From positions 1 through 14,897 of the forward strand of contig JAUSPT010000096.1 in assembly GCA_030652805.1 (NCBI GenBank): a DNA stretch of 14,897 nt. The letters run 5' to 3'. Numbering within the stretch: the first letter of the stretch is position 1; every line of letters begins with the position of its first letter. The position numbers and the translations under genes are program-made. Below the pieces are notes generated by a model. The model saw nothing but the letters and a program-made list of their open reading frames with translations. It had not been told where the DNA came from and did not search any database. This document shows positions 3,105 to 12,100 of the stretch, piece by piece. The DNA is from a bacterium. GTDB taxonomy: Bacteria > JAHJDO01.

Positions 3105-4184
3105 ATGTCAGGTTATATTATAGTTATATTTGCTTTTTTATTTCTTCTGACATTAGCTCTTTTATTTAGGGATAGAAAGCAGTCGTCTGATCCACTTATA
3201 CACCAGGAGATAAATAATCTAAGAGAACAGGTTAGTAAAACCCTCTCCGATAATAGTCAGGTTCTCAATCAGCAGATGTCCCTGATAATTAGCCAGATAA
3301 ATACACAGCTGCAGAATAACATAAAAATGCTTGAAACAGCCAATAAGAGCTTTTCCGACAAACTGGAAGGAACAACCAAGGTAGTTGGAGATGTGCAGAA
3401 TCGGCTTACGCAATTAGCAGAAGCAAATAAAAGGATATACGATATTGGAAAAGACATATCTTCTTTGCAGGAAATACTCAGAGCGCCAAAATTAAGAGGA
3501 GGCTTTGGCGAGTTCTTGTTGGGAGATCTTCTCTCTCAGATTATGTCCCCGGAGCACTATGAGCTTCAGTATACTTTCAAGAATGGTCAACGAGTTGATG
3601 CGGTTATTAAATTAGCTCAGCAAATGGTGCCGATTGACGCAAAATTCCCTCTGGAAAATTTTAAGAGACTGATTAGTGCAGAGGACAATATTGAGAAGGC
3701 ACAAATAAGAAAAGCATTCGTAATCGATGTTAAAAAACATATTGATAGCATTGCATCAAAATACATACTGCCCGATGAAGGCACCTTTGATTTTGCCTTT
3801 ATGTATATTCCCGCAGAGAACGTGTATTATGAAACTATAATAAAGGACGATAATCTGGGAGAAGAGAAAAGTATTTGCAGCTACGCTTTGCGCAAAAAAG
3901 TAATTCCCGTATCTCCAAACAGCTTCTATGCATATTTGCAGGCAATTCTACTTGGATTAAGAGGCATGAGGATAGAAAAGAGTGCGCAAACCATAATAAG
4001 CAATCTTGCCAGACTGCACGGTGATCTGGCGAGGTTTTACGAGGAATTTTCAAAGATAGGCACGCATCTCTATCACTCAAAATCCTCTTATGAATCAGCG
4101 GAGCGAAGACTGGAAAAATTCACAAATAAGCTGGAGAATATTGCTTCGCCGGATAAAAAATCCATCACGCTTGGTAAAGAATGA
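3105..4184 (+). CDS. rmuC: DNA recombination protein RmuC
   Basis: A 359-residue protein of the RmuC family, which limits DNA inversions and rearrangements at repeats and has a predicted nuclease-like core. Residues 3-21 form one N-terminal membrane segment. Residues from about 30 to 125 are a long polar helix of coiled-coil type, rich in Gln, Asn and Leu. The conserved core then begins with RGGFGEFLLGDLLSQI near residue 132 and continues with QYTFKNGQRVDAVI and VPIDAKFPLENF (about 160-185). The C-terminus again looks helical. The length is at the short end for the family but the core is complete. The ribosome binding site is weak (GGGA about 10 bases before the ATG). The stop codon overlaps the fmt start by 4 bases (ATGA), so the two are translated together. 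Confidence 0.92.
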   Translation: MSGYIIVIFAFLFLLTLALLFRDRKQSSDPLIHQEINNLREQVSKTLSDNSQVLNQQMSLIISQINTQLQNNIKMLETANKSFSDKLEGTTKVVGDVQNRLTQLAEANKRIYDIGKDISSLQEILRAPKLRGGFGEFLLGDLLSQIMSPEHYELQYTFKNGQRVDAVIKLAQQMVPIDAKFPLENFKRLISAEDNIEKAQIRKAFVIDVKKHIDSIASKYILPDEGTFDFAFMYIPAENVYYETIIKDDNLGEEKSICSYALRKKVIPVSPNSFYAYLQAILLGLRGMRIEKSAQTIISNLARLHGDLARFYEEFSKIGTHLYHSKSSYESAERRLEKFTNKLENIASPDKKSITLGKE

Positions 4185-5131
4185 CAAAAATTGTTTTTAT
4201 GGGGACACCTGATTTTGCCCTGCCGAGTCTTAATGCTCTTATAAAAGCCGGGCATGATGTGATATGTGTTGTTACGCAGCCTGACAGGTCAAAAGGCAGA
4301 CAAAGAGAGGTGATGGCTCCTCCTGTAAAATTATGTGCACAAGAGTACAATACTAAGATTCTTCAGCCAGAGACAATAACAGATGTATTAGTAAAGAGCC
4401 TTCAAGCACTCAGTCCTGAGCTCGTAGTTGTTGTAGCTTATGGCAAAATACTTCCTAAACAGATTCTGGATATTCCACGCTTGGGTTGTATAAATGCGCA
4501 TGCGTCTTTATTGCCAAAATATAGAGGTGCAGCTCCAATGCAAAGAGCATTGCTTAATAGCGAGAAACAAACAGGTGTAACAATAATGTTTATGAATGAA
4601 AGAATGGATGCCGGTGACATTTTACTTCAAGAAAAAATAATGGTTAGCCCCTCAGATAACCTGGAAACTCTCCATGATAGATTAAGCAAACTATCAGCAA
4701 AATTATTAGTTAAAGCTATAGCACAAATAGAGCAAGGCACTTGTTCCAGAATCACTCAAAATCATGCAGAGGCGACGTATGCTCCAATGCTCAAGAAATC
4801 CGACGGTCTCATAGATTGGACCAGACCTGCAAAAGAAATTAATAATATGATAAGAGCTATGAATCCATGGCCAGGTACTTACACATTCCTAAACATATCT
4901 GGCAAAAAGAAAATGCTAAAAATACTCAAAACAGAAGTTTATGACAAATCCGCATACAGCAAAGAAAAAACAAGTGTTTTACTGGATATATTGAAGAATA
5001 AAGGCGGACTTGTAGGCACAGGCAAGGGACAACTTCTGCTTAATGAGGTTCAGCTTGAGAGCAGTAGAAAAGTATCTTTCGAAGAATTTATCAGAGGCCA
5101 TCCTGTTAAGAAGGGGTTCAGGTTCCGATAG
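4181..5131 (+). CDS. fmt: Methionyl-tRNA formyltransferase
   Basis: Transfers a formyl group from 10-formyltetrahydrofolate to the initiator methionyl-tRNA in the cytoplasm. The 316 residues match the usual length. MGTPDFA at 7-13 opens the N-terminal Rossmann domain. INAHASLLPKYRGAAP carries the catalytic Asn105 and His107 and the substrate loop, and MDAGD supplies Asp143; these align with Asn106, His108 and Asp144 of the E. coli enzyme. WTRPAKEINNMIRAMNPWPG marks the junction to the C-terminal OB-fold domain, which ends with FEEFIRGHPVKKGFRFR. It starts inside the rmuC stop codon. In many bacteria fmt is followed within a few genes by rpe; here a 2.6-kb stretch of different composition intervenes. 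The last 81 bases recur in diverged form at 6487-6567. This copy of the gene is intact. Confidence 0.97.
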   Translation: MTKIVFMGTPDFALPSLNALIKAGHDVICVVTQPDRSKGRQREVMAPPVKLCAQEYNTKILQPETITDVLVKSLQALSPELVVVVAYGKILPKQILDIPRLGCINAHASLLPKYRGAAPMQRALLNSEKQTGVTIMFMNERMDAGDILLQEKIMVSPSDNLETLHDRLSKLSAKLLVKAIAQIEQGTCSRITQNHAEATYAPMLKKSDGLIDWTRPAKEINNMIRAMNPWPGTYTFLNISGKKKMLKILKTEVYDKSAYSKEKTSVLLDILKNKGGLVGTGKGQLLLNEVQLESSRKVSFEEFIRGHPVKKGFRFR

Positions 5132-5132
5132 A

Positions 5133-5150
5133 TCTCCGCAAATGCGGAGA
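5133..5150. terminator. Hairpin between convergent fmt and the methyltransferase gene
   Basis: TCTCCGC at 5133-5139 pairs with GCGGAGA at 5144-5150 around a 4-base AAAT loop. It lies just after the fmt stop and just before the minus-strand stop at 5152, where a bidirectional terminator would be expected. No T-run follows on either strand, so intrinsic termination would be weak. It starts two bases after the point where the fmt duplication ends. Confidence 0.4.
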
Positions 5151-5151
5151 C

Positions 5152-6348
5152 TCAGAGGGATGAGCTCAGGTGTGTGATAGATTCGAAATATGCGGTGCGT
5201 GGAAACATGTCCACGAGTCCCGTGTCTATAAGTCGATAGCTATGGCTGGTCAGAAACTTCACGTCACGCGCCATTGTGTCTGCCGCGCATGACACATAAA
5301 TAATATCGCGCGGTTTCTTTCTGCTCAAAATCTCGACTACCCGTTTCTCCAATCCGGCACGCGGTGGATCGAGTATTACCGTCGTGTTCTTAACATCGAT
5401 ATTGTTCAGCGCTTCTTCAAGCAGATCTTCTGCGTAACCATGACGGAACGCTACCGAATCAAGATTCAAGGCTCGTCCATTGCATATTGCTGCGTTGATT
5501 GCGTGCTTGTCTGTATCTATACCAAGTACTGCTTTCACTCCGATCTTTGCCGCTATGAACGCAAAAGTACCCACTCCGCAGTAGAGGTCTATAACCGCCT
5601 TGGGTTCAGTACGATTCAGTATTTCGGACAAACTATCAAAAAGGGCTTCTGTTATCCGCGGATTAGTCTGGAAGAAACTTTTTGTTGGAACACTGATATT
5701 GCCAAGGGGTGTTTTCTCAACCAGGCTCGGGCTGGAAGGCGCGATGTGATTGGTCCAATACACAGCGCCATCATGCTCTGTACATCTGAGATTGACCGAT
5801 GTGCCGTAGCTGAACGAGTAATCTTTTCTAAGTTCTGTCAGAAGATTGTTAAGAGGGTCCATTGCCAATGGGCAATTCGGAATATCGAGAACGGTCTTAT
5901 TGTCCTTCATATAGTATCCAAAAGTCCTGCTATCGTCTCTTCGCCCATTAACGTGCATAGATATCTTGTTCCTGTATCCAAGCACGGATGGGCACCGTAT
6001 TGGCTCTCTGCAGGTCACTTCGTGGCATCCACCCATGTGTTCAAGAAGGTTCACAAGCTGTTTCTGCTTAAATTCTATCTCCGCATCATGCTCCATATGC
6101 TGGTAACAACATCCCTCGCATTTCTCGGCAAACTCACAAGATGGTATGATACGCGAGGACGATTCCTCCAGTATCTCCACCAGGTCGGCCTCGGCACAAT
6201 TCTTCCTTTGCTTCCTGATTTGCACTCGCACCAGTTCATTTGGGAGCACACCGTCAACAAAGTAGACCATGCCATCCAGCCGCGCCAGGCCACGTCCGCG
6301 GTAAACCACATCTTGGATTCTCAATTTAATTGTATCTTTATTATTCAT
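5152..6348 (-). CDS. TRAM-domain Fe-S 23S rRNA m5U methyltransferase (TrmA/RlmD family)
   Basis: Predicted S-adenosylmethionine-dependent RNA 5-methyluridine methyltransferase, 398 residues. An N-terminal TRAM domain (about 4-60, with YRGRGLARLDG) is followed by Cys71, Cys77 and Cys80 in a C-x5-C-x2-C pattern; with Cys159 in IPNCPLA these form the expected 4Fe-4S site of RlmD/RlmCD-type enzymes. YRNK at 125-128, FFQTN at 225-229, the SAM motif DLYCGVGTF at 254-262, ILDPPRAGL, the nucleophile Cys354 in YVSCAADT and Glu389 in YFES follow in family order. SCAADT replaces the common SCNPxT. Which uridine is modified cannot be told, so no symbol is given. The gene is visibly richer in G and C than fmt or rpe and sits between two copies of the fmt 3' end, so it may be acquired. 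No good ribosome binding site precedes the ATG. Confidence 0.88.
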   Translation of the reverse strand: MNNKDTIKLRIQDVVYRGRGLARLDGMVYFVDGVLPNELVRVQIRKQRKNCAEADLVEILEESSSRIIPSCEFAEKCEGCCYQHMEHDAEIEFKQKQLVNLLEHMGGCHEVTCREPIRCPSVLGYRNKISMHVNGRRDDSRTFGYYMKDNKTVLDIPNCPLAMDPLNNLLTELRKDYSFSYGTSVNLRCTEHDGAVYWTNHIAPSSPSLVEKTPLGNISVPTKSFFQTNPRITEALFDSLSEILNRTEPKAVIDLYCGVGTFAFIAAKIGVKAVLGIDTDKHAINAAICNGRALNLDSVAFRHGYAEDLLEEALNNIDVKNTTVILDPPRAGLEKRVVEILSRKKPRDIIYVSCAADTMARDVKFLTSHSYRLIDTGLVDMFPRTAYFESITHLSSSL

Positions 6349-6393
6349 GTCAAATAGATAATCTCATTTCGTTTCGCATTTAAACATACATCA

Positions 6394-6412
6394 TTGAACA
6401 GATTGCGTTCAA
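6394..6412. promoter_or_regulatory. Inverted repeat upstream of the methyltransferase gene
   Basis: TTGAAC at 6394-6399 and GTTCAA at 6407-6412 are exact inverted copies separated by 7 bases, about 46 bases upstream of the minus-strand start at 6348. Read on the minus strand, the TTGAAC formed by 6407-6412 could serve as a weak -35 box. The geometry would suit a dimeric repressor site, but no regulator is seen nearby and a chance occurrence is possible. Confidence 0.25.
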
Positions 6413-6471
6413 GATAGCGACTAATTTTATATAAATCAAGGGATTTTTGTGCGAAAATACGGGCTTTAGGC

Positions 6472-6567
6472 TTGCTTAAGGAGATGCAGCTTGAGGGTAG
6501 TAGAAAGGTATCTTTCGAAGAATTTATTAGAGGTCATCCCGTTAAAAAAGGTTTCAGATTCCGATAG
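6472..6567 (+). pseudogene. Second, diverged copy of the 3' end of fmt
   Basis: Bases 6487-6567 align without gaps to 5051-5131, the last 81 bases of fmt, with 10 mismatches by my count (about 88% identity). Both end at the same TAG and similarity stops there. Translated in the fmt frame, the fragment gives QLEGSRKVSFEEFIRGHPVK and then the same final residues as fmt; only one residue differs (Gly for Ser). Most changes are thus silent, which means this piece diverged while still under selection as part of a working fmt gene. Weaker similarity (LLKEMQL against LLNEVQL) reaches back to about 6472. No start codon, body or active site remains, so it is not a working gene. It lies between the two minus-strand genes. 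Confidence 0.9.
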
Positions 6568-6601: not shown

Positions 6602-7588
6602 TCATCCCTCAACAAGCTCCTTCCTCAGCATCTCTCTGCCTTTCTCGTAGGTAGGGCACGGGGCAGGGATTTTGCCACATCCATCACGCCACACGGAAAG
6701 ATCTGCGATGGTGTTGTCCAACGCGCAAATTCCGGCGGTTTTCGGAATGCGCTGGAAGATCAGCTTGTATAATTCCCTAGCTTTCATAGTGGTGCCGTAT
6801 GTCAGCCCCAAAGCCTGCAGCACATTCAGATCTTTCATCTCGTTGTAAAGTCCTTGGGAACCCCCGCATGCATTCAATTCGAGTACGCGGCTTGGACACG
6901 AGGCGCACATCATCCAATCTGCGCCTGAGACGAGGGTAATAGGCGTTTCGGTGTTCTTGAGGATATGTTGGATCATCTCAGGCAGGTTGTCGGGCTCGTA
7001 TGGAGGTCTCACGCCGTCACCATACTGAGACACGGCACACAAGAGGATGTGTGGGCGAATCTTGATCGTGTCGGCGTGGTACATGTCCTGCAGGGATATT
7101 CCCTTGTCCTCTTTCATCTCCTCTTGGCTTCGTGGAGGAATGATCGCGTTGATTCCCTTCGAATATCCTTTTTCGTAACATCCGCTGTTAGCATATGGAC
7201 ATCCGCGCCACGCTTCGGATGTGACTGTATCGTAGCCACATATTCCGAAAACGGAAGGGATTGCTTTAAACAAGCGCCCAAGAAGAACTCTTGCAGGAAG
7301 GATGCTTCCCGGGGCAAGATCCAGCCGCTGAAGAATATCCATGTCTCGCTTTCTATTAAACTCAGATCCTTCCGGAGTATCGTCTTCGGTGCCTGGGTCC
7401 TGATAAGAAAATACGCCACCCCCATTGCAGCGAAGGTTGACGGGCATGTCGGGGTTGTTCCTGACACTTTCGCGGAGTTTCCTGAGTCGTGCATTTCTTG
7501 AGATCAAGTCGTTTTCACCGAGTGAACACACGATACAAAGAAGTTGATATGGTCTGATAACTAGCATCGGATAGTCTTGGCACTTCAT
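6602..7588 (-). CDS. Cysteine-rich protein of two DUF1284-like halves, function unknown
   Basis: A 328-residue soluble protein with no signal peptide, made of two related halves (about 9-145 and 175-318). Each half has RPxxLLC (Cys18, Cys184), a Cys in the middle (54; 228 and 231), a run of the form LQxLxLxxG then FxxIPxxxGIC (Cys117, Cys288), a WRxGC or WRGC motif (Cys130, Cys304) and Cys plus YEKG (Cys137, Cys311). The RPHxLLC opening recalls DUF1284, a small family thought to bind metal or an Fe-S cluster; this link is from memory of the motif and needs a profile search. Five cysteines per half in matching positions suggest two metal or cluster sites. The ATG at 7588 has a GAAAGGA site about 7 bases upstream and a good promoter. 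Composition differs from rpe and ffh, as for the methyltransferase gene. Confidence 0.7.
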   Translation of the reverse strand: MKCQDYPMLVIRPYQLLCIVCSLGENDLISRNARLRKLRESVRNNPDMPVNLRCNGGGVFSYQDPGTEDDTPEGSEFNRKRDMDILQRLDLAPGSILPARVLLGRLFKAIPSVFGICGYDTVTSEAWRGCPYANSGCYEKGYSKGINAIIPPRSQEEMKEDKGISLQDMYHADTIKIRPHILLCAVSQYGDGVRPPYEPDNLPEMIQHILKNTETPITLVSGADWMMCASCPSRVLELNACGGSQGLYNEMKDLNVLQALGLTYGTTMKARELYKLIFQRIPKTAGICALDNTIADLSVWRDGCGKIPAPCPTYEKGREMLRKELVEG

Positions 7589-7632: not shown

Positions 7633-7662
7633 ATTGTATGATTGTATAATGTTATGTGTCAA
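7633..7662 (-). promoter_or_regulatory. Sigma70-type promoter for the DUF1284-like gene
   Basis: On the minus strand, TTGACA (7657-7662) and TACAAT (7633-7638) are 18 bases apart. Transcription would begin near 7626, about 38 bases before the ATG at 7588. The rest of 7589-7758 is AT-rich. A weaker plus-strand pair (TTGAAA, TAAAAG, 17 bases apart, in 7699-7728) could serve rpe. Confidence 0.55.
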
Positions 7663-7758
7663 GTAAGATTTACCTTGCATTACTGGCATTTTCATTTCTT
7701 GAAACATAAGACGAAATGTGTTAAAAGAATGGAACTAATTTAGGAGAAATTTGGCCCA

Positions 7759-8421
7759 ATGATAAAAATAGCGCCTTCAATCCTTTCTGCGGATTTTTCA
7801 AAACTTGAGCAAGAGGTGTATAGAGCTGAGGAAGCAGGAGCGGATCTTATACATATTGATGTTATGGATGGACATTTTGTTCCTAATATAACAATAGGTC
7901 CAGTAGTGGTAAAATCTATAAGAAACAAGACTAGTATTCCGCTTGATGTGCATTTAATGATTGAAAATCCAGACAAATACATAGATGCTTTTGCAGAAGC
8001 AGGCGCAGATATTATAACTGTTCATGTTGAGGCATGTGAGCATTTACATAAGACTTTTGATCATATACGAAAATTCTCCAAGACAGTCGGAGTTTCACTT
8101 AACCCTTCTACGCCTATTGTGCGTATAGAACACATTCTAAAACAGGTTGATATGGTTCTCGTTATGACCGTTAATCCGGGATTTAGCGGTCAGAAATTCA
8201 TCAGATCTGTTCTGCCAAAGATAAAAGAGCTTAAGCAAATGATAGATAATGCAGGGTTACCTGTTGATATAGAGGTAGATGGCGGGATAGACGAAGTCAC
8301 AGCAGCAGATGTTGTAAAAGCAGGTGCTAACATATTGGTTGCTGGAACCGCTGTATTTAAAGCGACTGATATAAAAGAGGCAATTGCAAAATTGCGGGGT
8401 AAGGGAAATAGTAATGCTTGA
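7759..8421 (+). CDS. rpe: Ribulose-phosphate 3-epimerase
   Basis: Interconverts ribulose 5-phosphate and xylulose 5-phosphate in the pentose phosphate pathway; a cytoplasmic TIM barrel. The 220 residues match the family length. IAPSILSADF carries Ser8, HIDVMDGHFVPN carries the metal ligand His32 and the catalytic Asp34, DVHLM carries His65, and EVDGGI carries Asp174; MTVNPGFSGQKF is the phosphate-side loop. All the key residues are present. AGGAGA lies 11 bases before the ATG. The gene ends inside the start of ffh, with an 8-base overlap, so the two are coupled. It begins a run on the plus strand after the compositionally different stretch that follows fmt. Confidence 0.97.
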   Translation: MIKIAPSILSADFSKLEQEVYRAEEAGADLIHIDVMDGHFVPNITIGPVVVKSIRNKTSIPLDVHLMIENPDKYIDAFAEAGADIITVHVEACEHLHKTFDHIRKFSKTVGVSLNPSTPIVRIEHILKQVDMVLVMTVNPGFSGQKFIRSVLPKIKELKQMIDNAGLPVDIEVDGGIDEVTAADVVKAGANILVAGTAVFKATDIKEAIAKLRGKGNSNA

Positions 8422-9736
8422 AATAATATCAGAAAAGTTTCAAAACATATTTCGCAATCTTAGAAAGCCGGGCAGGCTTACAGATGATAACATAAAGGCT
8501 GCATTACGGGAGGTACAACTTGTTCTTCTGGAAGCTGATGTTAATTATAAGGTTGTTAAAGAGTTTATTGGAAATATTAGTGAAAAAGCAGTTGGACAAC
8601 AGGTACTTAGAAGCCTTCAACCAGGGCAGCAGGTTATAAAAGTAGTACATGAAGAACTGATCAATCTTTTAGGCAAATCAGCTTGCGGTATAAATATGGC
8701 AAAAGGGCAGCCTACGGTTATAATGGTAGTTGGCCTTCAGGGAGGGGGAAAAACAACAACAGTTGCTAAACTTGCAAAATATTTCACAAAACAGAATTAT
8801 CAGTGCCTTCTGGCAGCAGCAGATATATACAGGCCTGCTGCAGTGAAACAGCTGGAAGTTCTCGGCAGCCAATTGAATATACCTGTTTTTTCAGGGCATA
8901 ATGATCCTGTAAAGATTGCAACTGATTCTGTTAAGCTTGGTTCCAGAGACAACAAGGATATTGTTATTATTGATACAGCAGGCAGGCTTCATATTGACCA
9001 GACTCTAATGACAGAGCTGGTGGATATGAAAAAGGCTACAGGGGCACATGAAGTTCTACTGGTAGCAGATGCTATGACAGGCCAGGATGCAGTGAATATA
9101 GCAAGAGAATATCAGGATATTCTGGGAATAGATGGCATAATTCTTACGAAAATGGATGGAGATGCTAGAGGCGGCGCAGCAATATCTATATGTGCTATTA
9201 CAGGTAAGCCTGTTAAATTTATTGGAAATGGCGAAAAACTCGATAATTTAGAATTATTTTATCCGGATAGAATGGCATCCAGAATACTGGGAATGGGGGA
9301 TATTCTTAGCTTAATTGATAAGGCAGAATTCAAAGATAAAGCTGAACAGGAAAAAGCGCTTGAGAAGAAAATGAGAAAAGAAACCTTAACTTTAGAGGAT
9401 TTTCTTGATCAGCTTAAGAAGATGAGAAAGCTTGGATCGATGCAGGAAATTTTACAAATGCTTCCTATGCAGGGTCAATTTAAAAATTTAAAGATTGATG
9501 AGGGGACTATAAAGAAACAGGAAGCAATTATTAATTCAATGACCAAGGAAGAGAGAAGAAGCATAGAGATAATTAACGGACAAAGACGAAAACGTATAGC
9601 TCGAGGCAGTGGAACAAATATTCAGGATGTTAACCTGCTTATTAAGAATTTTATTGCATCAAGACGAATGATTAAAGAATTAATAAAACGGGGAGGGTCT
9701 CTTGGCAAAAGAGGGCTGTTCCCCGGAATGATTTAA
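8414..9736 (+). CDS. ffh: Signal recognition particle GTPase Ffh (SRP54)
   Basis: Binds signal sequences emerging from ribosomes together with 4.5S RNA and delivers them to FtsY at the membrane. The start is ATG 8414, which gives MLEIISEKF, the usual Ffh N-terminus; an in-frame upstream ATG at 8384 lies inside rpe and is rejected. The 440 residues contain an N domain with LREVQLVLLEADVN, the G domain with GLQGGGKTT (107-115), DTAGR (187-191) and TKMDGD (245-250), and the M domain from about 300 with MLPMQGQ and RKRIARGSGTNIQDVN. The P-loop reads GGGKT where GSGKT is most common. The protein is of usual length and looks complete. No 4.5S RNA gene was recognised in the window. Confidence 0.97.
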   Translation: MLEIISEKFQNIFRNLRKPGRLTDDNIKAALREVQLVLLEADVNYKVVKEFIGNISEKAVGQQVLRSLQPGQQVIKVVHEELINLLGKSACGINMAKGQPTVIMVVGLQGGGKTTTVAKLAKYFTKQNYQCLLAAADIYRPAAVKQLEVLGSQLNIPVFSGHNDPVKIATDSVKLGSRDNKDIVIIDTAGRLHIDQTLMTELVDMKKATGAHEVLLVADAMTGQDAVNIAREYQDILGIDGIILTKMDGDARGGAAISICAITGKPVKFIGNGEKLDNLELFYPDRMASRILGMGDILSLIDKAEFKDKAEQEKALEKKMRKETLTLEDFLDQLKKMRKLGSMQEILQMLPMQGQFKNLKIDEGTIKKQEAIINSMTKEERRSIEIINGQRRKRIARGSGTNIQDVNLLIKNFIASRRMIKELIKRGGSLGKRGLFPGMI

Positions 9737-9757
9737 AAAACCATAAAAAGATATGAT

Positions 9758-11065
9758 ATGAAAAATTCAAAAATGATTAAAACTGTCCTAGCGTTTTTCC
9801 TGCTGAGTTTTCTTCTCACGGGCTGTGCTTCAACACGCTTTGCAACAACATTAAAGCCAGAGCATGGGATGGATAAGTTTGCGGTCTCAGATAATGTAAA
9901 GTTTTGTCTTGTTCAGCTTAATGCGGACCAAGACAAAAAATCAAATATGTATGTTGATGTCAAAGGAATAAAAATAACGGACATGAAACAACATGTCTCT
10001 GGTCTTTATCCTGATTTGTTGGGCAACGATTTTGGCGATATCCCCGTTTACGTTGATGTGAACAGTAAATGTTCCAACAGTGACTGGGGCGCGATGCTTA
10101 CAGGGTTTACCATGGGTGTAATCCCGTTTCCGTCAGGGAGTGAAATTGAATGTAAAGTACGCACCCGGGTGACTGGCGAAGGTGAATGGGTAATTGATAA
10201 AACCGTTTCGTTTACTCGGACAGATAAGTTGTGGCTGACGCTTACAAGCCCATTGGGTCTCTTGCCTATCCCCGGAAGGTCAGATTTACCAAGGGTCTGC
10301 TTTCTTTTTGACTTAACTGGTAAGAAATCTATGGCGCGTTCAAAAAAACTGACCATGGACTCTTTAACCGAAGCTGTTGTCCGGAGCATAAGGCAGGCAG
10401 ATCCTGACAAATTAAAGGCAGTGTCTGCATACCGCAAGTCAAGGATTCGGCAGGTCAGTATCAATGGGCAGTCTGTTTGGTCATTTCTGGGCTTTGGTTG
10501 CTCTTCTAAGGAACTTAAATCCAATGATATGGCCGCATTTTCCATTTATCGCGAGTATCCAACCTGGGATGCGAAACCTGTTGAGCAAGTGATTGTAGCG
10601 CGGCTGAAGGATGACATATGGCAGCCAGTAAATGGTTATCTGCGCAGTGTAAAAGAGTTGACGGCTGCTATGGTGGTTCTTGAGAATGGAAGACCTTCGA
10701 AGGCGGTTGTTAAGAAGATTGCCCACCCGCCTCTTGAGGACTTTATTGAATTACCCAACACCTATACAGCGAATGATCTGCGCTGGAACAACGGGATTCT
10801 TATAGAAGTCAAAAACAACACCCTGCCGTTGCTGATACGGGAAAAGAGCCGGGGAGATTTAACCAAATTTATAACACGGATTGAAAAGGCAATGCTGGTC
10901 TTGAACGAACGGGCGCAAATGGCTGACAACAAGGTGCAGCAGATAGTAGTGAATAAAGGTGACCCGAAGAACGTAAGCGAGTTCTCGGTGCTATATAATC
11001 AGCGCATTGCGATATTTGGGGCAATTCTTTCTGCCTTGAAACGATCTGGAGCAAGAGGCGAATAA
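9758..11065 (+). CDS. Lipoprotein of unknown function
   Basis: A 435-residue protein that I do not recognise. Residues 8-22 form a hydrophobic signal ending in LLTGC, a clear lipobox with the lipidated cysteine at 23 followed by Ala, so outer-membrane sorting is expected by the Asp+2 rule as known in enterobacteria. The mature N-terminal half (about 40-210) looks beta-rich, with MGVIPFPSGSEIECKV and LTSPLGLLPIPG as notable runs. The C-terminal third is helical and ends in a basic stretch. No catalytic motif or repeat is evident. It begins 22 bases after ffh with no good ribosome binding site, and a second exported protein follows 24 bases on. The base composition is richer in G and C than ffh or rpsP, which suggests a later insertion between them. 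Confidence 0.65.
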   Translation: MKNSKMIKTVLAFFLLSFLLTGCASTRFATTLKPEHGMDKFAVSDNVKFCLVQLNADQDKKSNMYVDVKGIKITDMKQHVSGLYPDLLGNDFGDIPVYVDVNSKCSNSDWGAMLTGFTMGVIPFPSGSEIECKVRTRVTGEGEWVIDKTVSFTRTDKLWLTLTSPLGLLPIPGRSDLPRVCFLFDLTGKKSMARSKKLTMDSLTEAVVRSIRQADPDKLKAVSAYRKSRIRQVSINGQSVWSFLGFGCSSKELKSNDMAAFSIYREYPTWDAKPVEQVIVARLKDDIWQPVNGYLRSVKELTAAMVVLENGRPSKAVVKKIAHPPLEDFIELPNTYTANDLRWNNGILIEVKNNTLPLLIREKSRGDLTKFITRIEKAMLVLNERAQMADNKVQQIVVNKGDPKNVSEFSVLYNQRIAIFGAILSALKRSGARGE

Positions 11066-11089
11066 ACTAACTGGCAGATTAAACGAGGA

Positions 11090-12100
11090 ATGACGATTAA
11101 AAAAGGTGTTTTGGCTTTTGTCTTGTGTTTTGCCATCGGTCTGCTGCAAGCTAACATGGCATTTGGTATAGACTGGGAACAGTGGCGAATACAAGACAAT
11201 TCGTTGGGCTCATTTCCAGTCGGCGTAAAACAACCGGCTCCAGACCCCCGAAAGATTGAGGCTTTTAAACTGAATGAGAAGGGAAACCAAGCATACAAGG
11301 CGGGAAATTGGAAAGAGGCAATTGATTATTACAAAAAGGCCCTGATAAACTCCCCCAATGACGGGGTCATCAGGCAAAATTTGACGAACGCCCAAAACGC
11401 CCTCGCAGAAGAGAAAAAAAGGCTTGCAACATGGCAGCAACTAGAGAAAAAAAATAAAAAGAAAAGAGAAATGGAAAATAATCAATTGCAGATGCTTTTG
11501 TGCGCGAGCAATTTTCCAAAGGATGCCGTTGACGCGGCGGAAAAGGGCAATTATGAAGATGCAAGAGGTCTGAGTGCGCAGGCGCTGTTAGGTCAGGTAA
11601 GAGATACTAAGTACGGGTTTCTTGATGTGGTTGATCTGCCGGAGCCAGTCGGGTTTGACGAAGTCTGGAGGGAGAAAGAGAAACAGCTCATTGCGCTCAG
11701 GAAATCAAACCCGTATATTCCTGATAAATATAAGTCGCTAAAGCCGTCTTTTGTCCCACGCTTGTCTGACAAGAAGGTTAATGAATTAGAAAAAGAAACA
11801 GAATCTGCGGCTAATTCTTCAGCGCGGTTACATGATTATTTCAAGAAGTTAAAATTAGAAGAATATTATGTAGAATATAGAAAATGTAGAGACGAAATAT
11901 CAGCAAAATATGGTGAGTCATTTGGTAAGGAACTAGATAAAGGATTTTGGAATGGTGTTAAAAAACTGGGTTCAGGAAGCATTACTATTAGTAGAGCGTT
12001 AGAGTTCCGCGAGATTTTTTCTAACATTGTAGGGGACTGTCTTACTAACGCGACCACTAAGATGGACGAAGCGATGAAAGAGTTGAAAGGGAAAAACTGA
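11090..12100 (+). CDS. Exported TPR-containing protein, function unknown
   Basis: A 336-residue protein with a signal peptide (basic MTIKK, hydrophobic 7-20, likely cut after AFG near residue 26). Around 57-105, AFKLNEKGNQAYKAGNWKEA and the following YYKKALINSPND match a tetratricopeptide repeat with a second, weaker hairpin after it. A charged, lysine-rich helix (about 106-130, AEEKKRLATWQQLEKKNKKK) follows; the C-terminal half is helical, without a motif known to me. TPRs usually bind partner proteins, and the lipoprotein encoded just upstream is the obvious candidate. GAGGA lies only one base from the ATG, too close for an ideal ribosome binding site. The first two thirds of the gene are more G+C-rich than the last third. 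No enzyme function is suggested. Confidence 0.65.
   Translation: MTIKKGVLAFVLCFAIGLLQANMAFGIDWEQWRIQDNSLGSFPVGVKQPAPDPRKIEAFKLNEKGNQAYKAGNWKEAIDYYKKALINSPNDGVIRQNLTNAQNALAEEKKRLATWQQLEKKNKKKREMENNQLQMLLCASNFPKDAVDAAEKGNYEDARGLSAQALLGQVRDTKYGFLDVVDLPEPVGFDEVWREKEKQLIALRKSNPYIPDKYKSLKPSFVPRLSDKKVNELEKETESAANSSARLHDYFKKLKLEEYYVEYRKCRDEISAKYGESFGKELDKGFWNGVKKLGSGSITISRALEFREIFSNIVGDCLTNATTKMDEAMKELKGKN

Follow-up and report, generated by a model that had tools for sequence, protein, structure and literature searches.

The window analysed here, the whole of a 14,897-bp contig (C96) from a 2.0-Mb genome assembled in 102 contigs (G000), contains the intact gene fmt, which is separated from rpe by an rlmD/rumA-like methyltransferase gene (hereafter rlmD), a promoter-like module, a truncated second copy of the fmt 3′ end and a DUF1284-domain gene, in that order (Table 1). 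The window was compared with four relatives (G001–G004), which together with G000 make up the five genomes of the family, the order and the class and belong to one genus only. No Rfam match to a structured RNA was obtained in the window, and sigma-70-like matches of the kind seen ahead of the DUF1284 gene were no rarer in shuffled sequence. Outside the fmt–rpe interval, a second insertion spot lies between ffh and rpsP (9758–12100), where a TPR gene and a lipoprotein-like gene to which no Pfam family matched are both missing in G001, G002 and G004.

Table 1. Features of the fmt–rpe region in the window
Feature	Position	Strand	Evidence or remark
fmt, methionyl-tRNA formyltransferase, complete	4181..5131	+	NCBIfam TIGR00460, E 2.4e-91; Pfam N and C domains
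Repeat of the fmt 3′ end, copy 1, within the intact gene	5037..5131	+	
rlmD/rumA-like 23S rRNA (uracil-5-)-methyltransferase	5152..6348	-	TIGR00479, E 1.7e-74
Promoter-like module E95, reads into rlmD	6383..6477	-	Member of a repeated family
Repeat of the fmt 3′ end, copy 2, 5′-truncated, joined to E95	6473..6567	+	
DUF1284-domain gene	6602..7588	-	PF06935, E 1.2e-07
Sigma-70-like promoter match ahead of the DUF1284 gene	7633..7662	-	TTGACA-18-TACAAT, 11/12
Native rpe-side flank	7690..7758	.	Alignment to G001 and G002 resumes here
rpe, ribulose-phosphate 3-epimerase	7759..8421	+	TIGR01163

A preliminary description of this DNA had stated that the last 81 bases of fmt recur behind the methyltransferase gene with about 10 mismatches and no gaps, that both copies end at the same stop codon, where similarity ends, and that one residue differs. 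The alignment of 5051–5131 with 6487–6567 is indeed gapless with exactly 10 mismatches, contains the 20-base identical run that had been described (5072–5091 and 6508–6527), and ends at a TAG common to both copies, at which similarity stops. Nine of the mismatches fall at third positions, and the tenth is a residue change (S to G). The left end had been understated, however, as the similarity extends a further 14 bases leftward to 5037 and 6473, giving a repeat of 95 nt with 86% identity; the single residue difference thus holds within the 81 bases but not in the extension, which adds two more. A second intact fmt gene was rejected because the second copy is a fragment truncated at approximately codon 285 of fmt, and no other full copy was found when the G000 genome was searched. 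A chance repeat was likewise rejected, with about 4e-22 such pairs expected in a window of equal size, as was an assembly artefact, since the composite, in which the promoter module adjoins an fmt 3′ end, recurs in the independent genome G004. The fmt end (GGGGTTCAGGTTCC) bears a likeness, by eye only, to a tRNA T-arm.

The fmt–rpe interval was readable in four genomes (G000, G001, G002 and G004), which is a small sample; G003 is incomplete, and fmt was not found in it. In G001, whose fmt is 94% identical to that of G000, the order is fmt, rlmD, rpe. The preliminary description had proposed looking for relatives with nothing between fmt and rpe and for fmt 3′ fragments downstream of intact fmt in other genomes. 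The former arrangement was found in G002, where rpe follows fmt directly, and the latter in G004, where the order, with names of the inserted genes assigned by eye, is fmt, rlmD, a response-regulator-like gene, the fmt fragment, a hypothetical gene, a large N6-methylase-type gene, a FabK-like gene, a FabF-like gene and rpe. The fmt end of G002 differs from those of the other genomes, and its empty arrangement may therefore be a deletion scar. Foreign genes are present in three of the four readable genomes; all inserted genes read towards fmt, and their GC content is higher than that of the surroundings. rlmD is single-copy in each genome having it (G000, G001 and G004), with dN/dS well below 1, and was not found in the G002 genome (about 90% complete), while the DUF1284 gene occupies this spot in G000 only and is not there in G001, G002 or G004. 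Alignment to G001 and G002 places the right boundary of the imported interval at about 7690–7694. Neither an intact second fmt around the fragment nor a gene order common to all relatives, the two patterns that the preliminary description had set against integration at fmt, was thus observed. The contents of the fmt–rpe interval vary among relatives, and the interval is therefore a hotspot of gene import.

The two fmt ends of G000 differ by 10 synonymous and three non-synonymous substitutions, where 20% would be synonymous under neutrality (P = 1.5e-5), and all three residue changes lie within the first 24 bases, beside the promoter module. Because of this preponderance of synonymous differences, a sign of purifying selection, the G000 fragment is regarded as a recently working fmt end, in agreement with the earlier claim that the second copy diverged as such. 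In contrast, fmt and the fragment of G004 differ by four synonymous and eight non-synonymous substitutions, the pattern expected of a decaying fragment under relaxed constraint, though G000 and G004 contrast only marginally in substitution pattern (P = 0.047). Compared with fmt of G001, the G000 fragment differs at 14 of 95 positions, exceeding the prediction from fmt-wide divergence (P = 0.002), and the intact fmt end of G000 at nine of 95 (P = 0.13); these divergence tests are weak because the fragment is only 95 bases long. The fragments of G000 and G004 share one state, at column 12, that is present in no fmt, and within G004, fmt and the fragment share states at columns 3 and 55. The synonymous distance between G000 and G001 is 0.34 for rlmD, 0.17 for fmt and 0.11 for rpe, although this contrast alone is weak because rmuC, just upstream of fmt, has also diverged by 0.34, about like rlmD. 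Between G001 and G004, the corresponding distance is 0.39 for rlmD versus 0.66 for fmt. Distances of rlmD departing from those of fmt and rpe are as expected if the interval was exchanged between lineages. Taken together, these comparisons suggest that the fragment may come from the working fmt of another lineage, with exchange having occurred between lineages.

Considering these results, we propose, with about even confidence, that the second fmt end is the junction scar of a gene import from a related lineage by recombination. The fragment would be the 3′ end of the other lineage's fmt, and the incoming segment most likely carried the fmt end, the DUF1284 gene and the rpe flank already arranged in this sequence. 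Its rpe side would have been joined by homologous recombination, and its promoter side either by a short-homology join (CTTGATT-like) or by recombination within an older fmt fragment, rlmD and the repeated promoter module probably being present at the site beforehand. What we infer in this scenario is who the donor was, how the events followed one another, and that the exchange was homologous and not site-specific. In its favour, what follows the fragment is a second foreign gene (DUF1284) and not the native flank, and a third fmt end is lacking ahead of rpe in the interval; import is best supported by this lack, together with how far the fragment has diverged. Of the two origins offered in the preliminary description, recombination with a related strain's fmt thus fits best, as the differences are mostly synonymous and the fragment is further from G001 fmt, whereas an integrating element restoring the reading frame with an imported end is less supported. 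Integration of that kind should leave the fragment as the displaced native end, near G001 fmt and followed by the native rpe flank, which is not what was observed. The strongest point against import is that the module is joined to the fmt end at the same base in G000 and G004; this is not expected of a random short-homology join and needs either common descent with later replacement or a site-specific event. A combination may be possible, in which the composite arose by an initial integration and its downstream content was afterwards replaced by recombination via fmt homology. Among the four readable genomes of the genus, a small sample, none showed the fmt–DUF1284 order expected of a donor. 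The locus shows how accessory genes build up one at a time downstream of an essential gene in a lineage that is uncultured, with no visible mobility enzyme.

Site-specific integration at the fmt 3′ end by a recombinase acting in trans is possible, though we regard it as rather doubtful. According to this explanation, rlmD and the module (about 1.4 kb) would be the element, the intact fmt would carry the imported end, the fragment would be the displaced native end, and the DUF1284 gene would be a separate arrival. The direct repeats flank exactly the rlmD–module unit, the target fmt is left whole and its 3′ end recurs on the distal side of the insert, as in integrative elements, and the identical junction base in G000 and G004 also agrees with such an event. 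A parallel exists at a tRNA-Glu gene of G004 (L236:2633-3652, contig C143), where a unit of about 970 bp, comprising a module and a small gene, ends in a 51-bp copy of the 3′ half of the tRNA. This unit contains no integrase, the site is empty in G000, G001 and G002, and the unit is a structural twin of the fmt case. However, when G000 is compared with G001, the end that would have been displaced is neither native-like nor followed by the native flank, the fragment being the more diverged of the two ends; most other module units are without a flanking repeat; and the empty site of G002, with its differing fmt end, may be a deletion. Furthermore, the unit has no integrase. As the preliminary description had noted, none is visible, neither among the interval genes nor, as a tyrosine recombinase match, on contig C96, and G000 as a whole has only two intact tyrosine recombinases, XerC/XerD-like in appearance, and one fragment. 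A phage or plasmid origin of the junction was rejected, as phage and plasmid records gave no match to the module–fmt-end composite and three module patterns had no exact counterpart in viral contigs. A limited literature search turned up no description of fmt being used as an integration site.

A single old event, by which G000 and G004 inherited a composite formed once in their common ancestor and lost in G001 and G002, with the G000 fragment kept fmt-like by gene conversion from the intact gene or by some function of its own, would fit the composite common to both genomes and the states shared at columns 12, 3 and 55, but it is improbable because it requires two independent losses, the G004 fragment is under relaxed constraint, and recent conversion would have left the G000 pair more alike than observed. 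We thus favour import by recombination over integration in trans at the fmt end, and the latter over vertical inheritance with conversion or function.

The duplication of the fmt end is mostly a known kind of event, and the module family is the more interesting part of the present results. The copy in the window has the boxes TTGATT-17-TATCTT, read by eye and not called by the consensus scan, followed by the leader GTTCAATGATGTATGTT, in which this copy has an 8-base deletion; it matches the sequence upstream of an hcp-like gene on another contig. With a sequence model made from the copies, at least 43 were found at E<0.01 (nine in G000, six in G001, eight in G002, six in G003 and 14 in G004), the counts per genome, from 150 scored candidates each, being lower bounds for weak copies, a few of which may be false. 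Two kinds are distinguished, namely the E95 type, with TTGACA-17-TATCTT and the leader GTTCAATGATGTATGTT, and the E-B type (TTTTTATTGAGGTTTTAAGCAATTTGAGCTATGGTAACATTAAAGTAGAAGTGACTGTTCAATAATTAATGTT), whose 8-base inverted repeat folds no better than shuffles (z about -0.9). A co-directed gene starts within 60 bases of the module in 25 of 29 copies, compared with 7.8% at random positions, and the genes behind the modules, as read by eye, are unrelated (nuclease-like, methylase-like, acetyltransferase-like, lipoprotein-like and others). Other dispersed repeats, such as TGTAGGGGCGGGGCTTGCCTCCGCCC and TTGATCGGGGAATCCAG, lie ahead of several modules, and a gene resembling a REP-associated transposase is part of one insertion (L233). 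A XerCD dif-like site within the module was considered, by eye only. FabF/FabK-like genes, found behind fmt in G004 (L017, the fmt–rpe interval), are also present in G000 on another contig, between two promoter-like modules (L224, reverse complement 7770-10137).

Conserved flanks were used as queries to find empty intervals in relatives. At topA, a module–gene unit is present in G001 and absent in G000 and G002, and at ruvA–galK, one is present in G002 and absent in G000 and G001. At plsY–gpsA, G000 is empty, and G002 and G004 share the module with different genes behind it; at an acyltransferase locus, the left flank and the module are common to G000 and G001, with hcp behind one and an unrelated gene behind the other. 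The module thus stays while the gene behind it changes at two orthologous sites. On contig C99 of G000 (L218:5628-7075), two modules stand in tandem, the second without its promoter half, and the segment lies between 32-bp imperfect direct repeats. A general rule that module units are flanked by target repeats was rejected, such repeats being found only at the fmt units, the tRNA-Glu unit and perhaps the C99 pair; on contig C30 of G004, an imperfect match of about 45 bp, 6.4 kb apart, frames no unit, and another two matches resemble dispersed repeats.

The modules might serve as landing sites in a cassette system that resembles integrons but lacks their integrase, in which single accessory genes are swapped behind fixed modules dispersed along the chromosome and some units have gene 3′ ends (fmt, tRNA-Glu) for attachment sites, with a recombinase in trans. 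We consider this a long shot, but if true, it would represent a cassette system outside known integrons. An integron platform consists of a Pc promoter, attI and cassettes; the likeness lies in a promoter-bearing site followed by exchangeable genes and in the tandem pair on C99 of G000, separated by a promoterless half module. However, no integron integrase was recognised among the G000 recombinases and no attC-type boxes were seen, both by eye, and the modules are spread across many contigs. Insertion of elements at conserved gene ends is already well known from trmE, yicC and dusA, as is an integrase-less island with imperfect repeats. SGI1-like elements at these three genes are 23–37 kb long and have their own integrase (PMC8409611); as at fmt, foreign DNA adjoins the terminus of a conserved protein-coding gene and leaves it with a functional reading frame, but the insert here is about 1.4–2.6 kb with no integrase. 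The 13-kb Microcin H47 genomic island of E. coli, which carries a microcin system and whose mobility has been shown by experiment, resembles the present case as a small island with extensive imperfect direct repeats and no recombinase genes of its own, moved by proteins from elsewhere (PMC3191183), whereas here one or two genes are concerned, known from sequence alone. Putative mobile promoters, as summarised where they are cited in PMC8049555, are closely similar promoter sequences ahead of non-homologous genes (Matus-Garcia et al., 2012; van Passel et al., 2014), and the module family appears to share this trait, with a similar candidate promoter ahead of unrelated genes. Compared with that summary, the module described here includes a conserved leader and is kept at two orthologous sites while the gene changes, and such a genus-wide promoter-like module may give incoming genes immediate expression.
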